Source: Pontibacter actiniarum (lineage in GTDB: Bacteria > Bacteroidota > Bacteroidia > Cytophagales > Hymenobacteraceae). From it: a stretch of 64,000 nt of DNA. Below, piece after piece: positions 11,598-23,386 of the stretch (position 1 is its first letter; each line of letters starts with the position of its first letter). Position numbers and translations under genes: made by a program. Where the stretch lies: assembly GCF_003585765.1 (NCBI RefSeq), contig NZ_CP021235.1:3658001-3722000 (forward strand), given 5' to 3'. The notes beneath the pieces were generated by a model, which did no database searches, had not been told where the DNA came from, and saw nothing but the letters and a program-made list of their open reading frames with translations.

Positions 11598-12092
11598 ATG
11601 AAAACGCTATACATCTTAAGGCATGCCAAATCGAGCTGGGAGTTTGACGAGCTCAGCGACCACGACCGCCCCCTGAACAAGCGCGGCCGCCACGATGCCC
11701 CGCTCATGGGGCAGGAACTGGCTTCGCGGGGCGTTGAGCCGGGCCTGATCATTTCGAGCCCGGCCGTACGGGCCATCAGCACCGCCACCCTCGTGGGCAA
11801 AGAGCTGGACTACGATGCCGATGACATTGTGGTAGACACCCGCGTGTACGGCGCCAACGAAGAGGACCTGCTGGAGGTGGTGCAGAGCGCACCCGCCGAA
11901 ATAGGCACCCTGCTGCTCGTGGGGCACAACGAGGCGGTGTCGGACTTTGCCAACCTGCTATCGCCGGAGCCGGTGCCGAGCATGGCAACGACGGGGGTGA
12001 CAGGGCTGCAGTTCAACTGCGACAGCTGGTACGACATCGCCAAAGACAACGCAAAGCTGCTGTTCTACGATTTCCCGAAGAACCACAGGTAA
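11598..12092 (+). CDS. SixA-type phosphohistidine phosphatase
   Basis: This 164-residue histidine-phosphatase-superfamily protein starts MKTLYILRHAKSSWEF, with the nucleophile His9 in the RHAKSSW motif typical of SixA. SSPAVRA and LLVGHNEAVSDFAN supply the second Arg and the second catalytic His. SixA removes phosphate from phosphohistidine, in E. coli from the phosphotransferase or ArcB phosphorelay proteins; the substrate here is not known. It is followed after 45 bases by ppk on the same strand, a recurrent Bacteroidota pairing consistent with a phosphate or polyphosphate role. Confidence 0.85.
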   Translation: MKTLYILRHAKSSWEFDELSDHDRPLNKRGRHDAPLMGQELASRGVEPGLIISSPAVRAISTATLVGKELDYDADDIVVDTRVYGANEEDLLEVVQSAPAEIGTLLLVGHNEAVSDFANLLSPEPVPSMATTGVTGLQFNCDSWYDIAKDNAKLLFYDFPKNHR

Positions 12093-12137: not shown

Positions 12138-14252
12138 ATGGACAAAGAGAAAGAAAAGGAAGCTAAGACAGCCTATCCGTTTATTAACAGAGAACTGAGC
12201 TGGCTCGCCTTTAACTATAGAGTACTGCAGGAGGCCAAAGACAAAAGCGTGCCCCTGCTGGAGCGCGTAAAATTTATGGCCATTTTCTCATCCAACCTGG
12301 ATGAGTATTTCAAGGTCCGGGTCGCTACGCTCAAGCGCCTCATCAAGCTCAAGAAGAAAACCCGTAAGAAGCTGGAGGAAGACCCTACCGAGACCCTGGA
12401 CCAGATAATGGCGGAGGTGCACCGGCAGCAGCAGGAGCTCGGGGAGGTGTTCCGGGACGGAATCCTTGCGGACCTGCGCGAGCACGACATCCACCTGCTC
12501 ACCGAGCACGACCTTAACCCGGGGCAGGAAGCATGGGTGCAGGAGTACTTTGACAAAACGCTGGAGCCACTGCTACTCCCCATCATCCTGGATGAGACAG
12601 AAACGCACCTTTTCCTGAAGGACCAGACGGTGTACCTCGGTGTGAAGATGTGGGAGCCGACAGCGGCAGACTGCATGCCGGAGCGCTTCGCCATGCTCGA
12701 AATCCCGACAAAGAAGCACGGGACCCGCTTTGTAAAGCTTCCCACCGTAGGCGACCAGCGCTACGTGATGTTTATGGATGACGTGATCCGCTTCTGCCTG
12801 CCGCGCCTTTTCCCGAACTACAGTACGTTTGATGCCCATGCCGTGAAAGTATCGCGGGATGCGGAGCTGGACATTGAGGAGGAGGTGTCGGGCAACCTGA
12901 TGGCCAAGATACGCAACAGCCTGAAGAAGCGCGAAACCGGCTACCCCGCCCGCCTGCTCTACGACCCTGAAACACCGCAGGACCTGCTGGACAGGATGAT
13001 GGCCCACACCGGCATTACCGAGGAGGCCCTGGTGGAGGGCAGCAAGTACCACAACTTCCGCGACTTCTTCCAGTTTCCGGACTTCAACCTGCCCGACCTC
13101 AAGTATAAACCGCAGCCTACCCTGGTGCACCCGCAGCTGGAGCAGGAGCCGAAAATGCTGGCCGCCATGAAGGAGCGGGATTACATGGTCCACTACCCGT
13201 ACCAGTCCTTTGACTATGTGCTTCGCCTGTTTGAGGAGGCGGCCGTAGACCCGAAAGTAACCGCTGTCAGTGCAACGCTGTACCGGGTGGCCAACAAATC
13301 GAAAGTAGCCAAGGCACTGGCAAAAGCCGCTAAAAACGGGAAGCTGGTCACGGTAGTCGTGGAGCTGAAGGCCCGCTTTGACGAGGAGTCCAACATCTAT
13401 TGGGCGGGCAAGCTGCAGAAAGCCGGGGCCAACGTAATCTTCGGCATACAGGACCTGAAGGTGCACTCCAAGCTCGGCCTCATTACCCGAAACGAGAGGG
13501 GCAAGCTGGTAAATTACGCTTACCTGAGTACCGGTAACTACAACGAGGAGACCTCCAAAGTATACGCCGACCACGCCTTGTTTACCTCAGATAAGCGCCT
13601 GACCAAAGACGTGGAGCAGGTCTTCAACTTCTTTATTGATAAACAGACGGATAAAGAGTTTGAGCACCTGCTGATGGCCCCGCTGAACATGCGCCAGGGC
13701 TTTGCAAAGCTGGTAGACCAGGAGATAAAGAATGCGAAGAAAGGACTGCCTGCACGGGTGACCTTAAAGATGAACGCCCTGCAGGATGAGCGCATGATCA
13801 AGAAGCTGTACGCAGCCAGCCAGGCGGGCGTAAAAGTACAGCTGCTGGTGCGCGGCATCTGCTGCCTGGTGCCGGGCGTGGAGGGGCTGAGTGAGAACAT
13901 ACAGGTCCGAAGCATTGTGGACCGCTACCTGGAGCACGCCCGGGTGTACATCTTCCACAACAACGGGGAGGAGAAACTTTACATTGCCTCCGCCGACTGG
14001 ATGACACGCAACCTGAACCGCCGGGTGGAGGTGGCCTTCCCCATCTACCAGGAGGACCTGGCCCAGCAAATCCGCACCATCATTGACCTGCAACTGGCCG
14101 ACGACACGAAAACCCGCAGCGTGGACAACAGCTACATTAAACCGCATGCACCTACCCACGTGCGGGCACAGTATGCGATTTACAACTACCTGCGCGAACT
14201 GGTGCCGCCCACCCCGGAAACGGCCTGTGAGCGAAGCGAGGAAGAGCAGTAG
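12138..14252 (+). CDS. ppk1: Polyphosphate kinase 1
   Basis: PPK1 reversibly makes inorganic polyphosphate from ATP. The 704-residue protein has the N domain (FINRELSWLAFNYRVLQEA, SSNLDEYFKVRVA), the head domain, and the two phospholipase-D-like catalytic domains. H443 in KVHSKL matches the autophosphorylated histidine of the E. coli enzyme, and H600 in LEHARVYIF the second essential histidine. STGNYNEETSKVYADH is also intact. It is transcribed with or just after the sixA-like gene and ends at a strong bidirectional terminator. Confidence 0.97.
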   Translation: MDKEKEKEAKTAYPFINRELSWLAFNYRVLQEAKDKSVPLLERVKFMAIFSSNLDEYFKVRVATLKRLIKLKKKTRKKLEEDPTETLDQIMAEVHRQQQELGEVFRDGILADLREHDIHLLTEHDLNPGQEAWVQEYFDKTLEPLLLPIILDETETHLFLKDQTVYLGVKMWEPTAADCMPERFAMLEIPTKKHGTRFVKLPTVGDQRYVMFMDDVIRFCLPRLFPNYSTFDAHAVKVSRDAELDIEEEVSGNLMAKIRNSLKKRETGYPARLLYDPETPQDLLDRMMAHTGITEEALVEGSKYHNFRDFFQFPDFNLPDLKYKPQPTLVHPQLEQEPKMLAAMKERDYMVHYPYQSFDYVLRLFEEAAVDPKVTAVSATLYRVANKSKVAKALAKAAKNGKLVTVVVELKARFDEESNIYWAGKLQKAGANVIFGIQDLKVHSKLGLITRNERGKLVNYAYLSTGNYNEETSKVYADHALFTSDKRLTKDVEQVFNFFIDKQTDKEFEHLLMAPLNMRQGFAKLVDQEIKNAKKGLPARVTLKMNALQDERMIKKLYAASQAGVKVQLLVRGICCLVPGVEGLSENIQVRSIVDRYLEHARVYIFHNNGEEKLYIASADWMTRNLNRRVEVAFPIYQEDLAQQIRTIIDLQLADDTKTRSVDNSYIKPHAPTHVRAQYAIYNYLRELVPPTPETACERSEEEQ

Positions 14253-14342: not shown

Positions 14343-15368
14343 TTAATTGTTACGTTCTACCCATTTGCGCGGCGGCACCAAGTAGAGTTCCACCCCTACA
14401 TATCCGGAGCCAGCCAGGTCGTTGGTGATTAGCTCATCGCGAGAGCCAACCTCATCAAACAGGCGGTGGCGGTAGTACTGCCTAAAGCCTCCTTCCACAG
14501 CAAACCACACAAAGTCGTAAATCTCCCGCTCCAGCCTCACCAGCCCTTTGATATCGGTGCGGCGCAGCTCTGTTTCTCCGTAGTTAGCCAGTACTGTCTC
14601 AGTCGCACGGATGTTGTAGCTGGCCCCCTCCAGGCGATAGCCGGCATAGAGCAGGGTCTTCTCGTTGGCGTTAAAGCGGATGCGGGCATTAGCCGGGAAG
14701 ATGGACTCCACCCCCCACTTGTCGTTAAAGGTCTTGTTGAAAAGGATGCCGGGATACACGCTCTGGCGCCCGTAGGTATACCCCAGTTGCAGGCCAACGC
14801 CCAGGGCATAGGTCGGCGTTTTTTTCCAGCCGTAGGCCAGGTCCACGGTCATTTTCAGGTAGTCCGGTATGTTAACGTTGTCCCGGGTGTAGTCGCCGTT
14901 AAGCTCCCCCTTCACCCGAACGAGGTAGAAGTTCCGTTCGTTAAGCGAGTGCAGGTAAGCAATCTGCAGCCCCAAGCTCTTCATGTTCTTGTCTTCCAGG
15001 TAGCGGTACAGGCCGTAGGAGTTGGTACCGGCGCTCTCAAAATTAAACTCCTCCAGCCTATAGTCTACGCCCAGTATGACTTTGGTTTGCGGCTTGTTAA
15101 CGATCGGTGCAAAAGCCCGCACGAAGAACTTATTATGCCGTTCCACACGGGCGCTCCCGTCGCCTATCCTAGGGTCGTCCGACTCAGAATCAATCTTAAA
15201 GCCGGGCAGTCGCTCATATCCTACCACCACGCCGCGGCTCCGGCCCATGCCAATCACCCCGGGGGTAGCGTACTCTTCTAATGTCTCTGTATCAGGTGTC
15301 TGCGCCTGCGCCTGCTCCGTAAGGCATAGCAGGACTAAGGCGCCAACCAATAGTTTGCGTATTTCCAT
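14343..15368 (-). CDS. DUF6268-like outer-membrane barrel protein
   Basis: The 341-residue protein has a signal peptide (MEIRKLLVGALVLLCLTEQAQAQ) and then a series of amphipathic strands ending in aromatic-rich turns (TKVILGVDYRLEEF, YALGVGLQLGYTYG, KTLLYAGYRLEGASYN, FVWFAVEGGFRQYY), as in a 10-14-strand outer-membrane beta-barrel. It resembles the DUF6268 family, by memory only. It follows the phosphoesterase-barrel gene on the minus strand across about 85 bases. No substrate or partner can be named. Confidence 0.75.
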   Translation of the reverse strand: MEIRKLLVGALVLLCLTEQAQAQTPDTETLEEYATPGVIGMGRSRGVVVGYERLPGFKIDSESDDPRIGDGSARVERHNKFFVRAFAPIVNKPQTKVILGVDYRLEEFNFESAGTNSYGLYRYLEDKNMKSLGLQIAYLHSLNERNFYLVRVKGELNGDYTRDNVNIPDYLKMTVDLAYGWKKTPTYALGVGLQLGYTYGRQSVYPGILFNKTFNDKWGVESIFPANARIRFNANEKTLLYAGYRLEGASYNIRATETVLANYGETELRRTDIKGLVRLEREIYDFVWFAVEGGFRQYYRHRLFDEVGSRDELITNDLAGSGYVGVELYLVPPRKWVERNN

Positions 15369-15454: not shown

Positions 15455-18400
15455 TTAAAAAAAGAAGCCGAAGTTCAGCATCCACAGATCTTCCTCCTTG
15501 CCTTCGCTGTAGCTCAGCGACAGCACGGTACGGTTCATCAGGTCTACCCACACGCCACCGCCGTAGCCCCAGTGCAGGCTCTTGAAGAAAGCCTCTTTAG
15601 GGTCCCCGTCCTGGTACACGCGGCCGGCATCCAACAAGCCCAGCACCCCGAACTTGGCAGGCGTTAAGTACAGGTTATAGTCGAAGAGCTGCAGGCGCGC
15701 CTCCCCATTGGCATACAGGCTGCTGCGGCCGGCAAAGCGCGTGCGACGGTAACCGCGCAGGTTCTCGGTGCCGCCCAGCGTGTTTGCCTGAAAGAACCGG
15801 TAATCGCCGTAGTTATGCGCTGCTCCAATCTTACCGGCCCAGGTCAGCTGAAAGGGGAAGTTAGGACTGAGGTAAAAGCGGAACTCTGAGTTGATGTTGG
15901 TGTAGTGCAGTTTTTCCCCGCCTACCTGCTGGTTGTAGCTGATGTTGTTGTACCAGCGCAGGCCGATCTGCGGGTTTGCCTCTGTGCTGCCAGCCCCGAT
16001 CACCTCAATGGTGGAGAAGGCCCTTGCCCCTACGTAATGCTGCACGGCAAATTTGCCCTTTTCGGCATCATAGGTGCCTTCGCGCAGTTGGCCTGCACGC
16101 GCCGCATCCAGCAGGAAGCTCTCCCTGTCGGGCATGTTTACCTCGAACCTATCGTAAGTGGGCCCGAAACCGATCTTCACGAAGGCCACCGGTAAGCGGT
16201 AGAACATGGCGTTGAGCGAGAGGCGCTCGTAGCGCACGTGGTAGTAGTCGTCGCCAAAGCTGTCGCTTTGCCCGGTGTTGTTGCCTAAGCCATAGAAATT
16301 ACGCTGGAACTGCGGCCCCTGCAGGTGCGCGTTCAGTTGCAGGTTCCAATCCTCCACCACATCCTGTAAGTCGCCGGTGTACTTCACGTTAAAGGAACTC
16401 GTGCGGAAGGCATAGTTGGCCTCCAGCAGGTGCGCCGAGGCGTAGGGGTCTTTGCGGAACTTCTGTGTTTTCAGCATCACACCAGCCCCTAAAAACACGC
16501 CGTCTTCCACGTTGTACTCCGCCGACAGGCGCGGCCCCAGGTAAGGCAGCAGGTAGTTGTTGCGGTCGTAGATGTTTACCTCATCGTACGGGTCGGTTTT
16601 GTCCTTGGTCTCGCTGCCGAAGCTAAACTGGTTTCCCTCTTCCGTGTCATACACAATGGTGTGCTTCTTCAGCCCGCTTACGTGGGAGTTGTCGATGATC
16701 ACGTCTTCGTCGCCGCCGCCAATAATGCGCACCACAATGCTCTCGTCCACATCCCCGGAAACGATGAAGGCATCCCGGCCTCCCATGCCGTAGATACGCA
16801 CTTCCTTGGTTTCGTCGGTATAGAATGTCCTGTTGAAGATTTCCTTCAGTATCTCCCCTTCTTTGGAGGTTTTGTAGCCGATCACCTGCAGCTCCTTATC
16901 ATTGAGGCGGTTGATGAGGTAGCGCTCGTGTTTGTCGCTGCCGGCTATGTCCACGAACTGTGTCAGAAAATCATAGTACGCTGCGGCTGCCTCCGGCAGT
17001 TTTTCCCGCCTCGCCTTCAGCTTGGCCGTTATTTCAGCGGCGGAGAGTTCGCGAACCGGTTCCGGCCACTCCTGCACCGCCTGCTCTATCACCTCGTCGG
17101 TTACACTTTGCTTGATGTCCTGCGCCAGCTGCAGCCACTCCTCCCGCGTTACTTTGTAGCTAAGGGTGCGGTCGAGGGTAAGGCTGCTGAGGTTTAGCCC
17201 CACGATGTCGCCGAAGTCGTAGCCGAAGTTCTGGACGTTGCGGATGCCCCACTTGCGCGTTAGCAGCCAGGGCAGCACACCGTCTGCCTTAAAGAAGGCC
17301 TGGTCGCGGTCTTCGGGCACGGGTGTGTACAGGTTGCCTTTGTCGGGCTTGTCCTCCTCTACCCATCGCCACTGCCCCTCATGCCGGTCCCAGTCCCCTA
17401 TCAACATGTCGAAAAGGCGTGCCCGCACATACTTCTGCTGGTCCACTTCGTGGTCGTTGTCCTCCACCAGCTCCTCCAGCACCTTGTCGGTGCCCACCAG
17501 GTTCTTCGCGTTTCCCAGGCTGGCTGTTTCCTCGTGGTTCTCGTCAGCGTCTTCCTCCAGGTAGGCAAGGGTGTTGCCGAATTCATCCCGGTACTGGCGC
17601 AGGTACGGTGTGTCCGGGATGTACACCAGCTCAGGGTTTGTGTGGTACACCCCGGCGGCATCGGCTAAAGGGGGAATAATGAGCGCGCCGTAGGGGTGCT
17701 GCGCCGATATCTGGTCTTGCAGCAGGTCTTGTGCGGCAGTTTGGCGCAGGTACGGCGGCAGCGCAAGGCCAGGATCTTTGTCCACGCTGCGCAGGGCATA
17801 TTCTTTGGCTTCGGGGTTGCGCACCTTCAGCGCCAGCGTCTGCTTGCCGCCCCCTTTCTGGTAAGGGGTAAGCCCCCCAAAGGTGTTTTTCATGTCCAGC
17901 AGCGGCACCTCCACCGGGGTGGCCCACACATCGCGGTAGTGCTCACCCAGCATGACCTCGCGCAGGCCGCTGGCCTGGTAGTCCGGGTTTGCCGCCAGGG
18001 TAATGGTACTGTCGGCGTAGTTGGTGTTGTCTTTCACCACCGGGCGCTCCCGGGGCGGTTTTCTGGTGTAGAGCCGCGTGCGGTACATCACCTTACCGGT
18101 CTCCCCCTGATCATCCGGTACCCAAAACTCAGCCCACACTTCTCCGTTCTCATGGTAATCCACCCGCACAAAGCCCTTTACCGTTTGCAGGTAAGAGGCG
18201 TCGCCGCCGTGTTTCAGGTAATCTGTTTTACAGCCGGCACCGCTCACGATGTGGGGCAGGTCGCCATACTTAAAATACTCCAGCGCATGCTCATGGCCGG
18301 CTGCGTAAGTAACGTTGTCATACTTGCTGAAGATGTCGAGCAGGCCCTGTATGTACGCCTGGTAGCGCGGGTGCGGGATATCCTGCAGAATGCCGCCGTA

Positions 18401-19270
18401 CCGGCGGGCAAAGGGGTAAATGGAGCCAATGACAGGCAGCGGCAGGTACATCCACTCCCGGAGCATGGTGAGCGGGAAGAGGTGGTCCCGCAGCGTGAAG
18501 AAGCCGCCGTGCTCTCCGCGCGTCATGAGCGGGTGGTGGCCTACCACCAGTATATCGCTGCCGCTGTTCTTCTCGATCAGGTCCTCGAGCTGCACCAGCA
18601 TTTCGCCCTCGGTGGCCGCACTGCAACTACTGTTGTCGCCGTAGGGCCTGTTAAAGGGGTGCAGCCACCACTCCGAGTCCAGCGCTATGAGCACCAGGTT
18701 ATCGCTGAGCCGCACTTCGTAGGGGCCGGGGCAGCCGTTGCCGGGCACGTAGAAGTCGCCCCCCACTACGATGTTTTCTTCCGTCAGGTACTCGTTCACG
18801 TAGCGCTGCTCCCGCATTACGGCCTCCAGGCCGCCGCGGCCGCTGTGGTTCCAGTCGTGGTTGCCGGGGATCATGTACTTTTCACCGGGGTAACCCTTCA
18901 GTATGTCGAGCTGCGCTTTCAGGCGGTTCTCCGACACCTCGCGGTCATACTTGTCGGGGGCAGGCAGGCCATTCATGTACACGTTGTCGCCAAGGAATAT
19001 GGTGGCGCTGTTCATGCCGGTCTCCATCATCATCTTGCGCATCAGCAGCATCGACGGTTCGCCGTCCAGGTTGGGCGCGCCCACATCCCCGATCAGGAAA
19101 ACAGAGTAAAGCACCTCGTTACCGGCGGTTGGCTTTTGCTCCTCCCAGTTTACCGACTCTGCTCCGTAATAAGGCTTGGTACTAACACAGGCACAAAGGG
19201 TCAGGCACAGGGCCACACACCACCCTTGGCGCATCAACAGCCGCTGTGCCTTCTGTAAAGCTTCAATCAT
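15455..19270 (-). CDS. Lipoprotein phosphoesterase / kinase-like / OMP85-type barrel fusion
   Basis: This 1271-residue outer-membrane protein has three parts. Residues 1-28 are a signal with lipobox LCAC. Residues 55-400 are a calcineurin-type metallophosphoesterase with all metal motifs: IGDVGAP (61), LGDNVY (93), GNHDWNH (136), GHHP (244), GHEH (325). Residues 440-690 look like an atypical kinase fold: a GGG-rich segment with ALKV and YALRSVDK, then IGDWDRHEGQW (624) and EDRDQAFF (653), resembling the D-R-H and D-x-D motifs of HipA/CotH/Fam20-type kinases. From about 870 to the terminal FFF is a surface-antigen (BamA/TamA-like) barrel with GGTENLRGYRRTRFAG. The phosphoesterase and barrel calls are strong; the kinase call is inference from motifs. 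Substrates are unknown. A 520-codon antisense frame inside it is a shadow. Confidence 0.85.
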   Translation of the reverse strand: MIEALQKAQRLLMRQGWCVALCLTLCACVSTKPYYGAESVNWEEQKPTAGNEVLYSVFLIGDVGAPNLDGEPSMLLMRKMMMETGMNSATIFLGDNVYMNGLPAPDKYDREVSENRLKAQLDILKGYPGEKYMIPGNHDWNHSGRGGLEAVMREQRYVNEYLTEENIVVGGDFYVPGNGCPGPYEVRLSDNLVLIALDSEWWLHPFNRPYGDNSSCSAATEGEMLVQLEDLIEKNSGSDILVVGHHPLMTRGEHGGFFTLRDHLFPLTMLREWMYLPLPVIGSIYPFARRYGGILQDIPHPRYQAYIQGLLDIFSKYDNVTYAAGHEHALEYFKYGDLPHIVSGAGCKTDYLKHGGDASYLQTVKGFVRVDYHENGEVWAEFWVPDDQGETGKVMYRTRLYTRKPPRERPVVKDNTNYADSTITLAANPDYQASGLREVMLGEHYRDVWATPVEVPLLDMKNTFGGLTPYQKGGGKQTLALKVRNPEAKEYALRSVDKDPGLALPPYLRQTAAQDLLQDQISAQHPYGALIIPPLADAAGVYHTNPELVYIPDTPYLRQYRDEFGNTLAYLEEDADENHEETASLGNAKNLVGTDKVLEELVEDNDHEVDQQKYVRARLFDMLIGDWDRHEGQWRWVEEDKPDKGNLYTPVPEDRDQAFFKADGVLPWLLTRKWGIRNVQNFGYDFGDIVGLNLSSLTLDRTLSYKVTREEWLQLAQDIKQSVTDEVIEQAVQEWPEPVRELSAAEITAKLKARREKLPEAAAAYYDFLTQFVDIAGSDKHERYLINRLNDKELQVIGYKTSKEGEILKEIFNRTFYTDETKEVRIYGMGGRDAFIVSGDVDESIVVRIIGGGDEDVIIDNSHVSGLKKHTIVYDTEEGNQFSFGSETKDKTDPYDEVNIYDRNNYLLPYLGPRLSAEYNVEDGVFLGAGVMLKTQKFRKDPYASAHLLEANYAFRTSSFNVKYTGDLQDVVEDWNLQLNAHLQGPQFQRNFYGLGNNTGQSDSFGDDYYHVRYERLSLNAMFYRLPVAFVKIGFGPTYDRFEVNMPDRESFLLDAARAGQLREGTYDAEKGKFAVQHYVGARAFSTIEVIGAGSTEANPQIGLRWYNNISYNQQVGGEKLHYTNINSEFRFYLSPNFPFQLTWAGKIGAAHNYGDYRFFQANTLGGTENLRGYRRTRFAGRSSLYANGEARLQLFDYNLYLTPAKFGVLGLLDAGRVYQDGDPKEAFFKSLHWGYGGGVWVDLMNRTVLSLSYSEGKEEDLWMLNFGFFF

Positions 19271-19648
19271 AGTATAACATGCTTAGTATTGCTGCCGGAA
19301 AGGCACCCACGGCTACTGTGCCAGCGCCACAGCAAGGGCCTGTAGGGGCCGGAAGTGGTTGGGGTGAGAACGGGTGTTGCATAGCGGGTAACGTTGCTTT
19401 TGGTTGCGCTCCATCCGTGCACAGTGAGTGCCACAGCTGCGGCAGGACTGAAGTTCATAAACGAAAGGTGCCCGCTTTTAGTTATTACCTGCGTATACAC
19501 CACCGGGCACCGCCGCTGCGGCCCCTCCTACTAACAAAAAGCTGATTTTACCGTAACCGCAGATTACCATGTGCCACATCTTGGGCACCACCGCTGCTGG
19601 GGAAGAACCGCCGCTACCGCGGGCCCCAGCTCTGCAACTAAACCACTT
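19271..19648. other. Gene-poor spacer between divergent genes
   Basis: These 378 G+C-rich bases separate two divergently transcribed genes. A 27-codon frame from ATG 19569 ends in a TGA that overlaps the next ATG (ATGA at 19649), but it does not look like a protein. No clear terminator, promoter consensus or RNA is visible. Confidence 0.5.
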
Positions 19649-20881
19649 ATGAAAGACCAAACAATAGCAAGACAGGCTGGAGAGGAAGATCAGGCCATCG
19701 TAAAGCAGGCCGGGGAGCATGTGTTCAGGCTCTTTAAGCAGAACCTATCCAAGAAGCTTGTCTACCACAACTACAAACATACTTTTGAGACCGTAGCCGA
19801 GGCGCAGGAGCTGGGTCAGCTCAGCAGGCTACCGGAGGACAGGCTCCTGGACCTGGTGCTGGCGGCCTGGTTCCATGACACAGGCTACATTGCCACCTAT
19901 GAGGGGCACGAGCAGGAGAGCGTGCGCATTGCAACGGAGTGGCTTGAGGAGAAGGAGTTTTCGCAGGAGCGTATTGACCATATCACCGGCATTATCCTGG
20001 CCACACAGCACAAGCAGGACCCGGAAACGCTGGAGCAGGAGCTAATGGTGGACGCGGACATGTCCAACATCGGCAAGGACACCTTTTTCGCCACCGCCGA
20101 GCTGCTGCGGGTGGAGTGGGAGATCTTCCAGGACAAGTTTTTCTCGGACGATGAGTGGGAGCAGTTTCAGATGGACTTCCTGCTATCGACCACCTTCCAC
20201 ACGATACAGGCGCAGCGCAAGTTTGCCGCACAGCTGGGCCTGAACATACAGGAGCAGCGCAGCCGCCTCAACAAGGAGATCAAGAAGAAGAAGAAAGAGG
20301 AGAAGAAGCACCGCAAGACGCTGGCCCAGCCTAAGCGCGGTATCGAGACTATGTTCCGGAACACGTACCGCACACACCTCAACCTCAGCGCCATTGCCGA
20401 CAACAAAGCGAACATGATGATCAGCCTCAACGCCATTATCATTTCGGTGATCATTACCTACCTCAGTGCCAAGACCTCCACCATCGGGGCCGATTACACC
20501 ACGCACCGCACTTTTCTGATCCCAATTGGCATTCTGCTGCTTACCACCCTAGGCTCCGTTGTGTTTGCCATCATTTCGGCGCAGCCGGAGGTGACCAGCT
20601 TCACGTTTAAGAAAAAGAAGAACAAAAAGCTGGACACCCGCAAAGTCAACCTACTGTTCTTCGGTAACTTCACCAACCTGCCCCTGGAGGAGTTCCAGAG
20701 CGGCATGCACGACATCATGCGCGACAAAAAATCGCTGTACAACAACATGATCACCGACATTTACTACTTAGGCGATGTGCTCAACCGCAAGTATAAAATC
20801 CTGCGCATTTCCTATACTATATTTATGGTTGGGCTGGTGCTCACGGTGGTGGGCTTCGCGGTGGCGGTGGCCTCTTACTAG
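19649..20881 (+). CDS. HD-domain protein with C-terminal PycTM-like membrane domain
   Basis: The 410-residue protein combines an HD phosphohydrolase-type domain (NYKHTFET with H43, WFHDTGY with H76-D77, ATQHKQD with H121, VDADMSNIG) with a basic linker (IKKKKKEEKKHRK, 211-223). A membrane region follows: a helix with NLSAIADNKANMMISLN leading into TM1 (256-274), TM2 (289-310), and TM3 (386-408). The NKANMMISLNA motif and layout match the Pycsar effector transmembrane family (PycTM, formerly DUF5706). HD domains often cleave nucleotides, so cyclic-nucleotide turnover or sensing at the membrane is plausible. No cyclase gene is adjacent. ATG 19649 is preferred over a 26-residue extension lacking coding character. 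Confidence 0.85.
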   Translation: MKDQTIARQAGEEDQAIVKQAGEHVFRLFKQNLSKKLVYHNYKHTFETVAEAQELGQLSRLPEDRLLDLVLAAWFHDTGYIATYEGHEQESVRIATEWLEEKEFSQERIDHITGIILATQHKQDPETLEQELMVDADMSNIGKDTFFATAELLRVEWEIFQDKFFSDDEWEQFQMDFLLSTTFHTIQAQRKFAAQLGLNIQEQRSRLNKEIKKKKKEEKKHRKTLAQPKRGIETMFRNTYRTHLNLSAIADNKANMMISLNAIIISVIITYLSAKTSTIGADYTTHRTFLIPIGILLLTTLGSVVFAIISAQPEVTSFTFKKKKNKKLDTRKVNLLFFGNFTNLPLEEFQSGMHDIMRDKKSLYNNMITDIYYLGDVLNRKYKILRISYTIFMVGLVLTVVGFAVAVASY

Positions 20882-23005: not shown

Positions 23006-23386
23006 TTACTTCACCACTACCCGCCGTACCGCACTGTAATTATCAGCCTCCAGTTTTACATAGTACAAACCTTTGGCATAGCGGTCCAGGTTAATGGTTC
23101 TGGTCAGCTTAGGTTCGGTGCGCGTTAACGTTTCGTGGTAGATCTCGTTACCGATAACGTTGAGGATGCGCAGCTCTACCTTCTGGGACTCCAGGTTAGA
23201 GACTGAAATGGTAAAAACGCCGTTGCTGGGGTTCGGGTAAATGGCAATATCCTCATTCTGCTCCAGGCCCAGGGGGTTCTCCTGCCCCGTTTGCTGCCCC
23301 GCCTGTACCTGCACCGGCGGTTTCGCCTGCGCCTGTACCAGTAGCACAGATAAGCATGTAAAAACAGAAAGTATAAATTGTTTCAT
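23006..23386 (-). CDS. Minimal T9SS sorting-domain protein
   Basis: The 126-residue protein is a signal peptide (MKQFILSVFTCLSVLLVQAQ), a Gln/Pro/Gly linker to about residue 45, and a complete type A T9SS C-terminal domain (IAIYPNPSNGVFTIS, LRILNVIGNEIYHET, YAKGLYYVKLEADN, RRVVVK). There is essentially no cargo between them. Such proteins may be degenerate cargo or genuine small surface proteins. It is transcribed alone and converges with the lipoprotein gene. Confidence 0.88.
   Translation of the reverse strand: MKQFILSVFTCLSVLLVQAQAKPPVQVQAGQQTGQENPLGLEQNEDIAIYPNPSNGVFTISVSNLESQKVELRILNVIGNEIYHETLTRTEPKLTRTINLDRYAKGLYYVKLEADNYSAVRRVVVK

Follow-up and report, generated by a model that had tools for sequence, protein, structure and literature searches.

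Omp85 proteins carry a C-terminal barrel, and the sequence ahead of it is periplasmic. The surface lipoproteins of Bacteroidota, for their part, have an export signal in the form of a cluster of acidic residues after the lipobox cysteine. TamL is an example of a lipidated Omp85 protein (PMC12045153), and the main text of the 2014 survey of Omp85 proteins holds no word beginning with kinase or phosph (PMC4104836). Among the atypical kinases, CotH was inactive when either Asp228 or Asp251 was mutated (PMC7821199).

The protein described here combines elements of these systems. It is encoded in a 64,000-nucleotide stretch of Pontibacter actiniarum DNA (the window) and comprises, from N- to C-terminus, a signal peptide with a lipobox, a metallophosphoesterase, a middle domain without a label, an all-beta segment, and an Omp85-type barrel. 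A preliminary description had read it as one open reading frame fusing a phosphoesterase, a kinase-like domain and an OMP85-type barrel, which is what was found: a minus-strand reading frame of 1271 aa, at 15455-19270. Literature searches returned no description of a phosphoesterase/kinase-fold/barrel architecture.

Domain order and the predicted kinase fold

The gene and its parts are as follows, with the basis of each assignment in brackets (A2 is an alignment of 65 homologues with 31-81% identity to the Pontibacter protein).

15455..19270 (-): whole gene, 1271 aa, metallophosphoesterase, kinase-fold domain, beta domain and Omp85 barrel (ATG start)
19187..19270 (-): signal peptide with lipobox L25-C-A-C28 (sequence)
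18059..19129 (-): purple-acid-phosphatase-type metallophosphoesterase domain, residues ~48-404 (PF00149, TRAP/PAP matches, metal motifs)
16946..17953 (-): predicted kinase-fold domain, residues ~440-775 (AF2 model, Foldseek/VIA kinase matches, hhalign to CotH and HipA)
17777..17878 (-): N-lobe, from the glycine-rich strand pair to the beta3-like R494-S-V-D-K498 (G474, Q477, R494 and K498 invariant in A2)
17369..17401 (-): catalytic-loop motif IGDWDRHEGQW, residues 624-634 (conservation in A2, alignment to CotH/HipA catalytic motifs)
17303..17311 (-): metal-binding-type D654-R-D656 in VPEDRDQAFF (invariant in A2, paired by hhalign with DYDN of CotH)
16556..16945 (-): residues 776-905, an all-beta linker domain at the position expected for POTRA domains (AF2 model 1)
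15455..16555 (-): Omp85-type barrel of about 16 strands, residues 906-1271 (BamA/TamA/FhaC matches, Omp85_fam, C-terminal Phe)
15728..15775 (-): Omp85 L6-loop motif GGTENLRGYRRTRFAG (conservation across barrel rows)

The motifs FGGLTPYQKGGGKQTLALKV...YALRSVDK (with K498), IGDWDRHEGQW (624-634), EDRDQAFF (653-660) and GGTENLRGYRRTRFAG (1166-1181) were all present at the residue numbers first given for them, as was the N-terminal lipobox, L-C-A-C28, and a lipobox-like motif recurred in 54 of 80 full-length homologue rows. The metal motifs noticed earlier in the phosphoesterase were likewise confirmed. Pfam Metallophos (PF00149) matched residues 85-257 above its cutoff (E 6.3e-5), and the residues of GD.G, GDNxY, GNHD, GHHP and GHxH, which include the metal ligands of purple acid phosphatases and the Tyr of GDNxY, were kept in 75-80 of the 80 full-length homologues (76 at the last position). 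Matches of this domain to TRAP/PAP structures in the PDB by phmmer were weak (best E 0.0061). Related genome contigs numbered 35, with identities of 64-82%; one bore the name Botryobacter in its title and the other 34 Pontibacter.

Searches of the middle domain of the Pontibacter protein against Pfam and NCBIfam, and by phmmer against the PDB, gave nothing convincing, and a profile built from the 65 members found no kinase among PDB sequences (best E 0.16, unrelated). The CotH profile (PF08757) matched neither this protein nor anything else in its genome, and only one of the 65 members of A2, at E 0.025; the HipA profile (PF07804) did not match this protein; and no family member exceeded the Pfam cutoff for Fam20C (PF06702; best 20.4 bits against 26.8). 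The best Fam20C profile match across 198 Bacteroidota genomes was nonetheless a member of this kinase-barrel family, below the cutoff, with coordinates that ended at about DWDRH.

The evidence for a kinase fold comes from structure prediction, which the preliminary description had proposed, together with a fold search, for residues 430-700. An AlphaFold2 model of residues 405-905 had a mean pLDDT of 75.7 and a pTM of 0.78, with some weak stretches, the confidence of the models being limited by an input of homologues from Pontibacter and one Botryobacter only. When this model was searched with Foldseek and VIA, every row of both top-50 lists was a kinase-fold protein, consistent with a two-lobed kinase topology. 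The best Foldseek matches were to Rio2 (E 3.5e-4) and HipT (E 5.1e-4), followed by Fam20C, HipA and others, with low TM-scores. VIA-align matched PI4K-IIβ (Z 13.7, 259 residues aligned, rmsd 4.5), Bacillus cereus CotH (Z 13.7, 250 aligned, rmsd 4.0), CtkA (Z 13.3) and HipA (Z 11.1), and the matches spanned model residues ~50-368. Predicted fold and motif conservation thus bear out the earlier placing of a kinase-like domain of CotH/HipA/Fam20 type between the phosphoesterase and the barrel.

Just 18 columns of A2 were invariant, including R494, K498, E572, D621, D626, H630, W634, D654 and D656, and since they fall mainly on the motifs listed above, the motifs are not a product of chance. The beta3-type Lys (K498), the catalytic Asp (D626, and nearly D628) and the metal-binding Asp residues (D654, D656) are conserved in the 65 homologues, and the invariant E572 lies near the predicted hinge. 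Within the catalytic loop D626, H630 and W634 were invariant, and D628, R629 and Q633 were present in at least 90%. The invariance of D628, H630 and the D-x-D, suggested earlier as a check on the kinase reading, therefore held for H630, D654 and D656 but not for D628, which two paralogues (L075, L098) replace by Gly while keeping D626, H630 and both metal Asp residues. D628 may therefore not be the precise catalytic Asp. A wider set of 105 rows showed D628 in 99 and H630 in 100. Most of the rows that departed from this were strongly diverged paralogues, in which several motifs tend to be lost at once, as in the degenerate members L112 (first copy), L113, L091 and L092.

Profile comparison by hhalign, with CotH and HipA sets built in this analysis, gave E 0.003 to CotH and E 0.0026 to HipA, against 0.1-0.63 for six unrelated controls, at probabilities of only about 10%. 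The alignments placed DWDRH on the WDxY of CotH and the NxDDH of HipA, and PEDRDQAF on PxDxDNxF. We conclude that the middle domain has the predicted fold of a kinase and the equipment that catalysis would require.

Such a domain could also serve as a non-catalytic sensor that gates the barrel or the phosphatase, its periplasmic ligand being a nucleotide, polyphosphate or some phosphorylated compound. To our knowledge the periplasm has no ATP supply, the residue at position 628 varies, and K498, DRH or DRD are missing altogether from some members, all of which would suit a sensor. Against this, few positions of the domain are better conserved than those for metal binding and those in the catalytic loop, and mere binding seldom keeps the full set. 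A sensor is a serious but less likely alternative, and the domain is treated below as a putative phosphotransferase.

The barrel, the membrane side and the family

The C-terminal barrel of the preliminary description was recovered both by profile and by model. PF01103 was above its cutoff in the genome scan, and NCBIfam Omp85_fam matched with E 2.9e-23 at 83 bits, below its 200-bit cutoff. An AF2 model of residues 776-1271 (pLDDT 70, pTM 0.59) matched BamA (Z 18.4 over 290 residues, rmsd 4.3), TamA (Z 17.7) and FhaC (Z 16.4), and 15 strands could be read in it, plus a last one in a low-confidence tail. In the L6 motif, G1173, R1178 and G1181 were present in 101 of 101 barrel rows and R1172 in 94, while the C-terminal Phe was found in 88 of the 101. 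Model and conservation together indicate a 16-strand barrel with an L6 RG(Y/F) motif, the mark of the Omp85 superfamily. No POTRA domain was matched in the protein by Pfam or NCBIfam; the segment in its place, residues 776-905, was modelled as all-beta, with confident strands at residues 369-490 of the 405-905 model (AF2 model 1).

The preliminary description had called this a surface protein; on that reading the enzymes would be displayed outside the cell and could act on extracellular phosphate compounds. Bacteroidota do put many lipoproteins on their surface, but the topology of Omp85 proteins places the sequence ahead of the barrel in the periplasm, and there was no acidic export signal at positions +2 to +6 after the lipobox Cys: among the 54 lipobox rows, 36 had no acidic residue there, 18 had one, and none had two or more. 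Display on the outside is accordingly very improbable. The term 'surface' is probably wrong, and we infer from the topology and the absent signal that both enzyme domains most likely face the periplasm.

Relatives of some part of the protein occurred in 130 of 296 sampled Bacteroidota genomes, as the full fusion (~1250 aa), as kinase plus barrel (~860-930 aa), or as the phosphoesterase alone. The kinase-plus-barrel form is present as a paralogue in the Pontibacter source genome itself (L074). In two loci (L086, L087) the kinase and beta domain form one protein and the barrels are separate adjacent genes, and in two others (L088, L089) the kinase has no barrel. That the parts are fused in some genomes and separate neighbours in others suggests that they probably cooperate. 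The family is thus common in Bacteroidota, and its kinase-fold domain was previously without a label. A scan of viral contigs found no relative, and PADLOC gave no defence model for the protein, while a neighbouring gene matched PycTM models; a defence role was judged less likely because the family is widespread.

Another possibility is that the barrel has the leading role and exports or inserts cargo in the manner of Omp85 proteins, its POTRA domains having been replaced and the enzymes modifying the cargo, protein or lipid, in passage. The barrel is of BamA/TamA/FhaC type with its L6 RGY motif intact, Omp85 proteins may bear enzyme domains, such as the patatin-type PlpD (PMC11116518), and the adjacent separate genes of L086 and L087 would fit such an arrangement. 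The lack of a recognisable POTRA domain or of an obvious cargo gene nearby, and the barrel-less forms of L088 and L089, argue the other way and make a barrel-led function improbable.

Genomic linkage to polyphosphate kinase

The gene is flanked by the following.

11598..12092 (+): SixA-like phosphohistidine phosphatase (PF00300)
12138..14252 (+): polyphosphate kinase of the PPK1 family (all four PP_kinase Pfam domains)
14343..15368 (-): DUF6268 outer-membrane barrel, downstream on the same strand
19571..20881 (+): HD domain plus PycTM membrane domain, divergent (PF18967 and PF01966)

The new observation of this study is the strong linkage of the family to polyphosphate kinase (PPK), HD-PycTM, SixA and a beta-propeller lipoprotein. 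A PPK gene lay within 5 kb of a family gene in 17 of 64 family-holding genomes (0.38 expected), and PycTM in 43 of 64 (0.30 expected), the expectation being taken from a simple uniform model of genome size and copy number, and the counts being inflated by the kinship of the genomes. Given that the linkage extends across many families and classes, it is hard to explain by chance. In several genomes of other families (L082, L096, L099, L100, L107), the kinase-barrel gene comes after co-directional genes for HD-PycTM, PPK and an SdiA-regulated-family lipoprotein with a beta-propeller, at times with an unlabelled 798-aa protein last, as in L099. HD-PycTM, SixA and PPK genes stand in a row in five genomes (G152, G066, G005, G087, G070), and in the first of these the cluster, including HD, PycTM, SixA and PPK, adjoins a lone phosphoesterase. 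The DUF6268 barrel has so far been found only in Pontibacter and close relatives.

In the remaining 47 of the 64 genomes PPK lay beyond 5 kb or on another contig. The linked PPKs were clustered in the PPK tree relative to shuffles, but the idea that they form one dedicated clade was rejected, as the tree needs several changes. Because they are not one clade and PPK is distant in most genomes, the link may reflect shared regulation and not a shared pathway. A second PPK1-family gene of the same genome (C1:2595245-2595790, L185) sits on a separate branch from that of the window. SixA-type enzymes dephosphorylate histidine, and the action of PPK1 passes through a phosphohistidine, so a control link is plausible. 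In a low-phosphate study of Flavobacterium johnsoniae, the PPK-like gene Fjoh_3851 was listed as induced (PMC8115612).

Several further observations were made at these loci. Of the 64 genomes with the family, 60 carried PycTM, frequently in a cluster with PPK and SixA; the HD and PycTM parts occupy separate reading frames in some genomes; and the Pycsar-effector label on the HD-PycTM type may be misleading. In one family (f23, L163-L171), the gene after the kinase-barrel encodes a class III nucleotide cyclase-TPR protein, often accompanied by a lone PycTM. A protein of ~800 aa without a Pfam match occurred near the kinase-barrel gene in 11 of the loci examined, e.g. at L074:6567-8903 (minus). 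In the window, a 126-aa reading frame at 23006-23386 consists of little beyond a type IX secretion sorting domain (Por_Secre_tail).

Proposed function and comparison with known systems

Recurrent adjacency to a polyphosphate-making gene suggests that the cell envelope has a system for handling phosphate that has escaped study, and from conserved membership of the module the protein most likely serves a polyphosphate- or phosphate-dependent modification of the envelope. The reading we favour, at about even confidence, is that of a putative phosphotransferase/phosphatase anchored in the outer membrane and facing the periplasm, within a polyphosphate-linked envelope module. Lipid at the N-terminus and the Omp85-type barrel at the C-terminus would anchor the protein in the outer membrane, where the purple-acid-phosphatase-type domain would take phosphate off, and the atypical kinase-fold domain (CotH/HipA/PI4K/Fam20-like) would pass phosphate to an envelope substrate, whether protein, lipid or glycan. 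From the periplasmic side of the outer membrane, the two domains could set the phosphorylation of that substrate, with polyphosphate metabolism as the partner process. The module would begin in the cytoplasm and inner membrane (PPK1, SixA, HD-PycTM) and run on in the envelope (beta-propeller lipoprotein). No catalytic activity is known for any family member found. The bolder proposal, that one outer-membrane protein pairs its own phosphatase with an active phosphotransferase working without ATP in the periplasm, on polyphosphate from the linked PPK or another phosphate-rich compound, is a long shot.

What has been found is a widespread kinase-fold family of Bacteroidota without annotation, placed in the outer membrane, where ATP is not known. 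Should it prove active, it would exemplify phosphorylation at the outer membrane of bacteria, with the linked PPK, SixA and HD-PycTM genes as concrete candidates for donor and control, and the question of phosphotransfer outside the cytoplasm is now directly testable in laboratory strains of Flavobacterium or Pontibacter.

Among described systems, CotH kinases (PF08757; B. cereus CotH, 5jd9) share with the middle domain the predicted fold (Z 13.7 over 250 residues), the motif order, with a WD-type catalytic loop followed by PxDxDxxF, and an extracytoplasmic setting, but identity over the structural alignment is only 16-18% and the Pontibacter domain shares its chain with a phosphatase and a barrel of the outer membrane. 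HipA/HipT kinases (PF07804) share the fold (Foldseek 5e-4 to HipT, VIA Z 11.1 to HipA) and, by hhalign, an NxDxH-type catalytic loop, whereas they are cytoplasmic toxin kinases with a HipB partner. Secretory kinases of Fam20C type (PF06702) have an Asp-Arg-type catalytic loop and Fam20C operates in a secretory compartment, although the profile match is below cutoff and stops at the catalytic loop, and the structural match is weaker (Foldseek 7e-3). PI4K type II and CtkA are the top structural matches by Z (13.7; CtkA 13.3), but at about 10-15% identity and with no sequence-level relation found, and a lipid substrate is only putative here. The phosphoesterase shares the GDNxY, GNHD, GHHP and GHxH motifs and weak PDB matches with TRAP-type purple acid phosphatases, from which it differs in being fused to kinase-fold and barrel domains. 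Lastly, the protein has the 16-strand-type barrel, L6 RGY motif and C-terminal Phe of the Omp85 superfamily (BamA, TamA/TamL, FhaC, PlpD), along with a lipobox, as in TamL, and an enzyme domain on an Omp85 protein, as in PlpD. In place of a recognisable POTRA domain it has kinase-fold and phosphoesterase domains, and the superfamily thereby gains an enzyme-bearing type in which no POTRA is recognisable.
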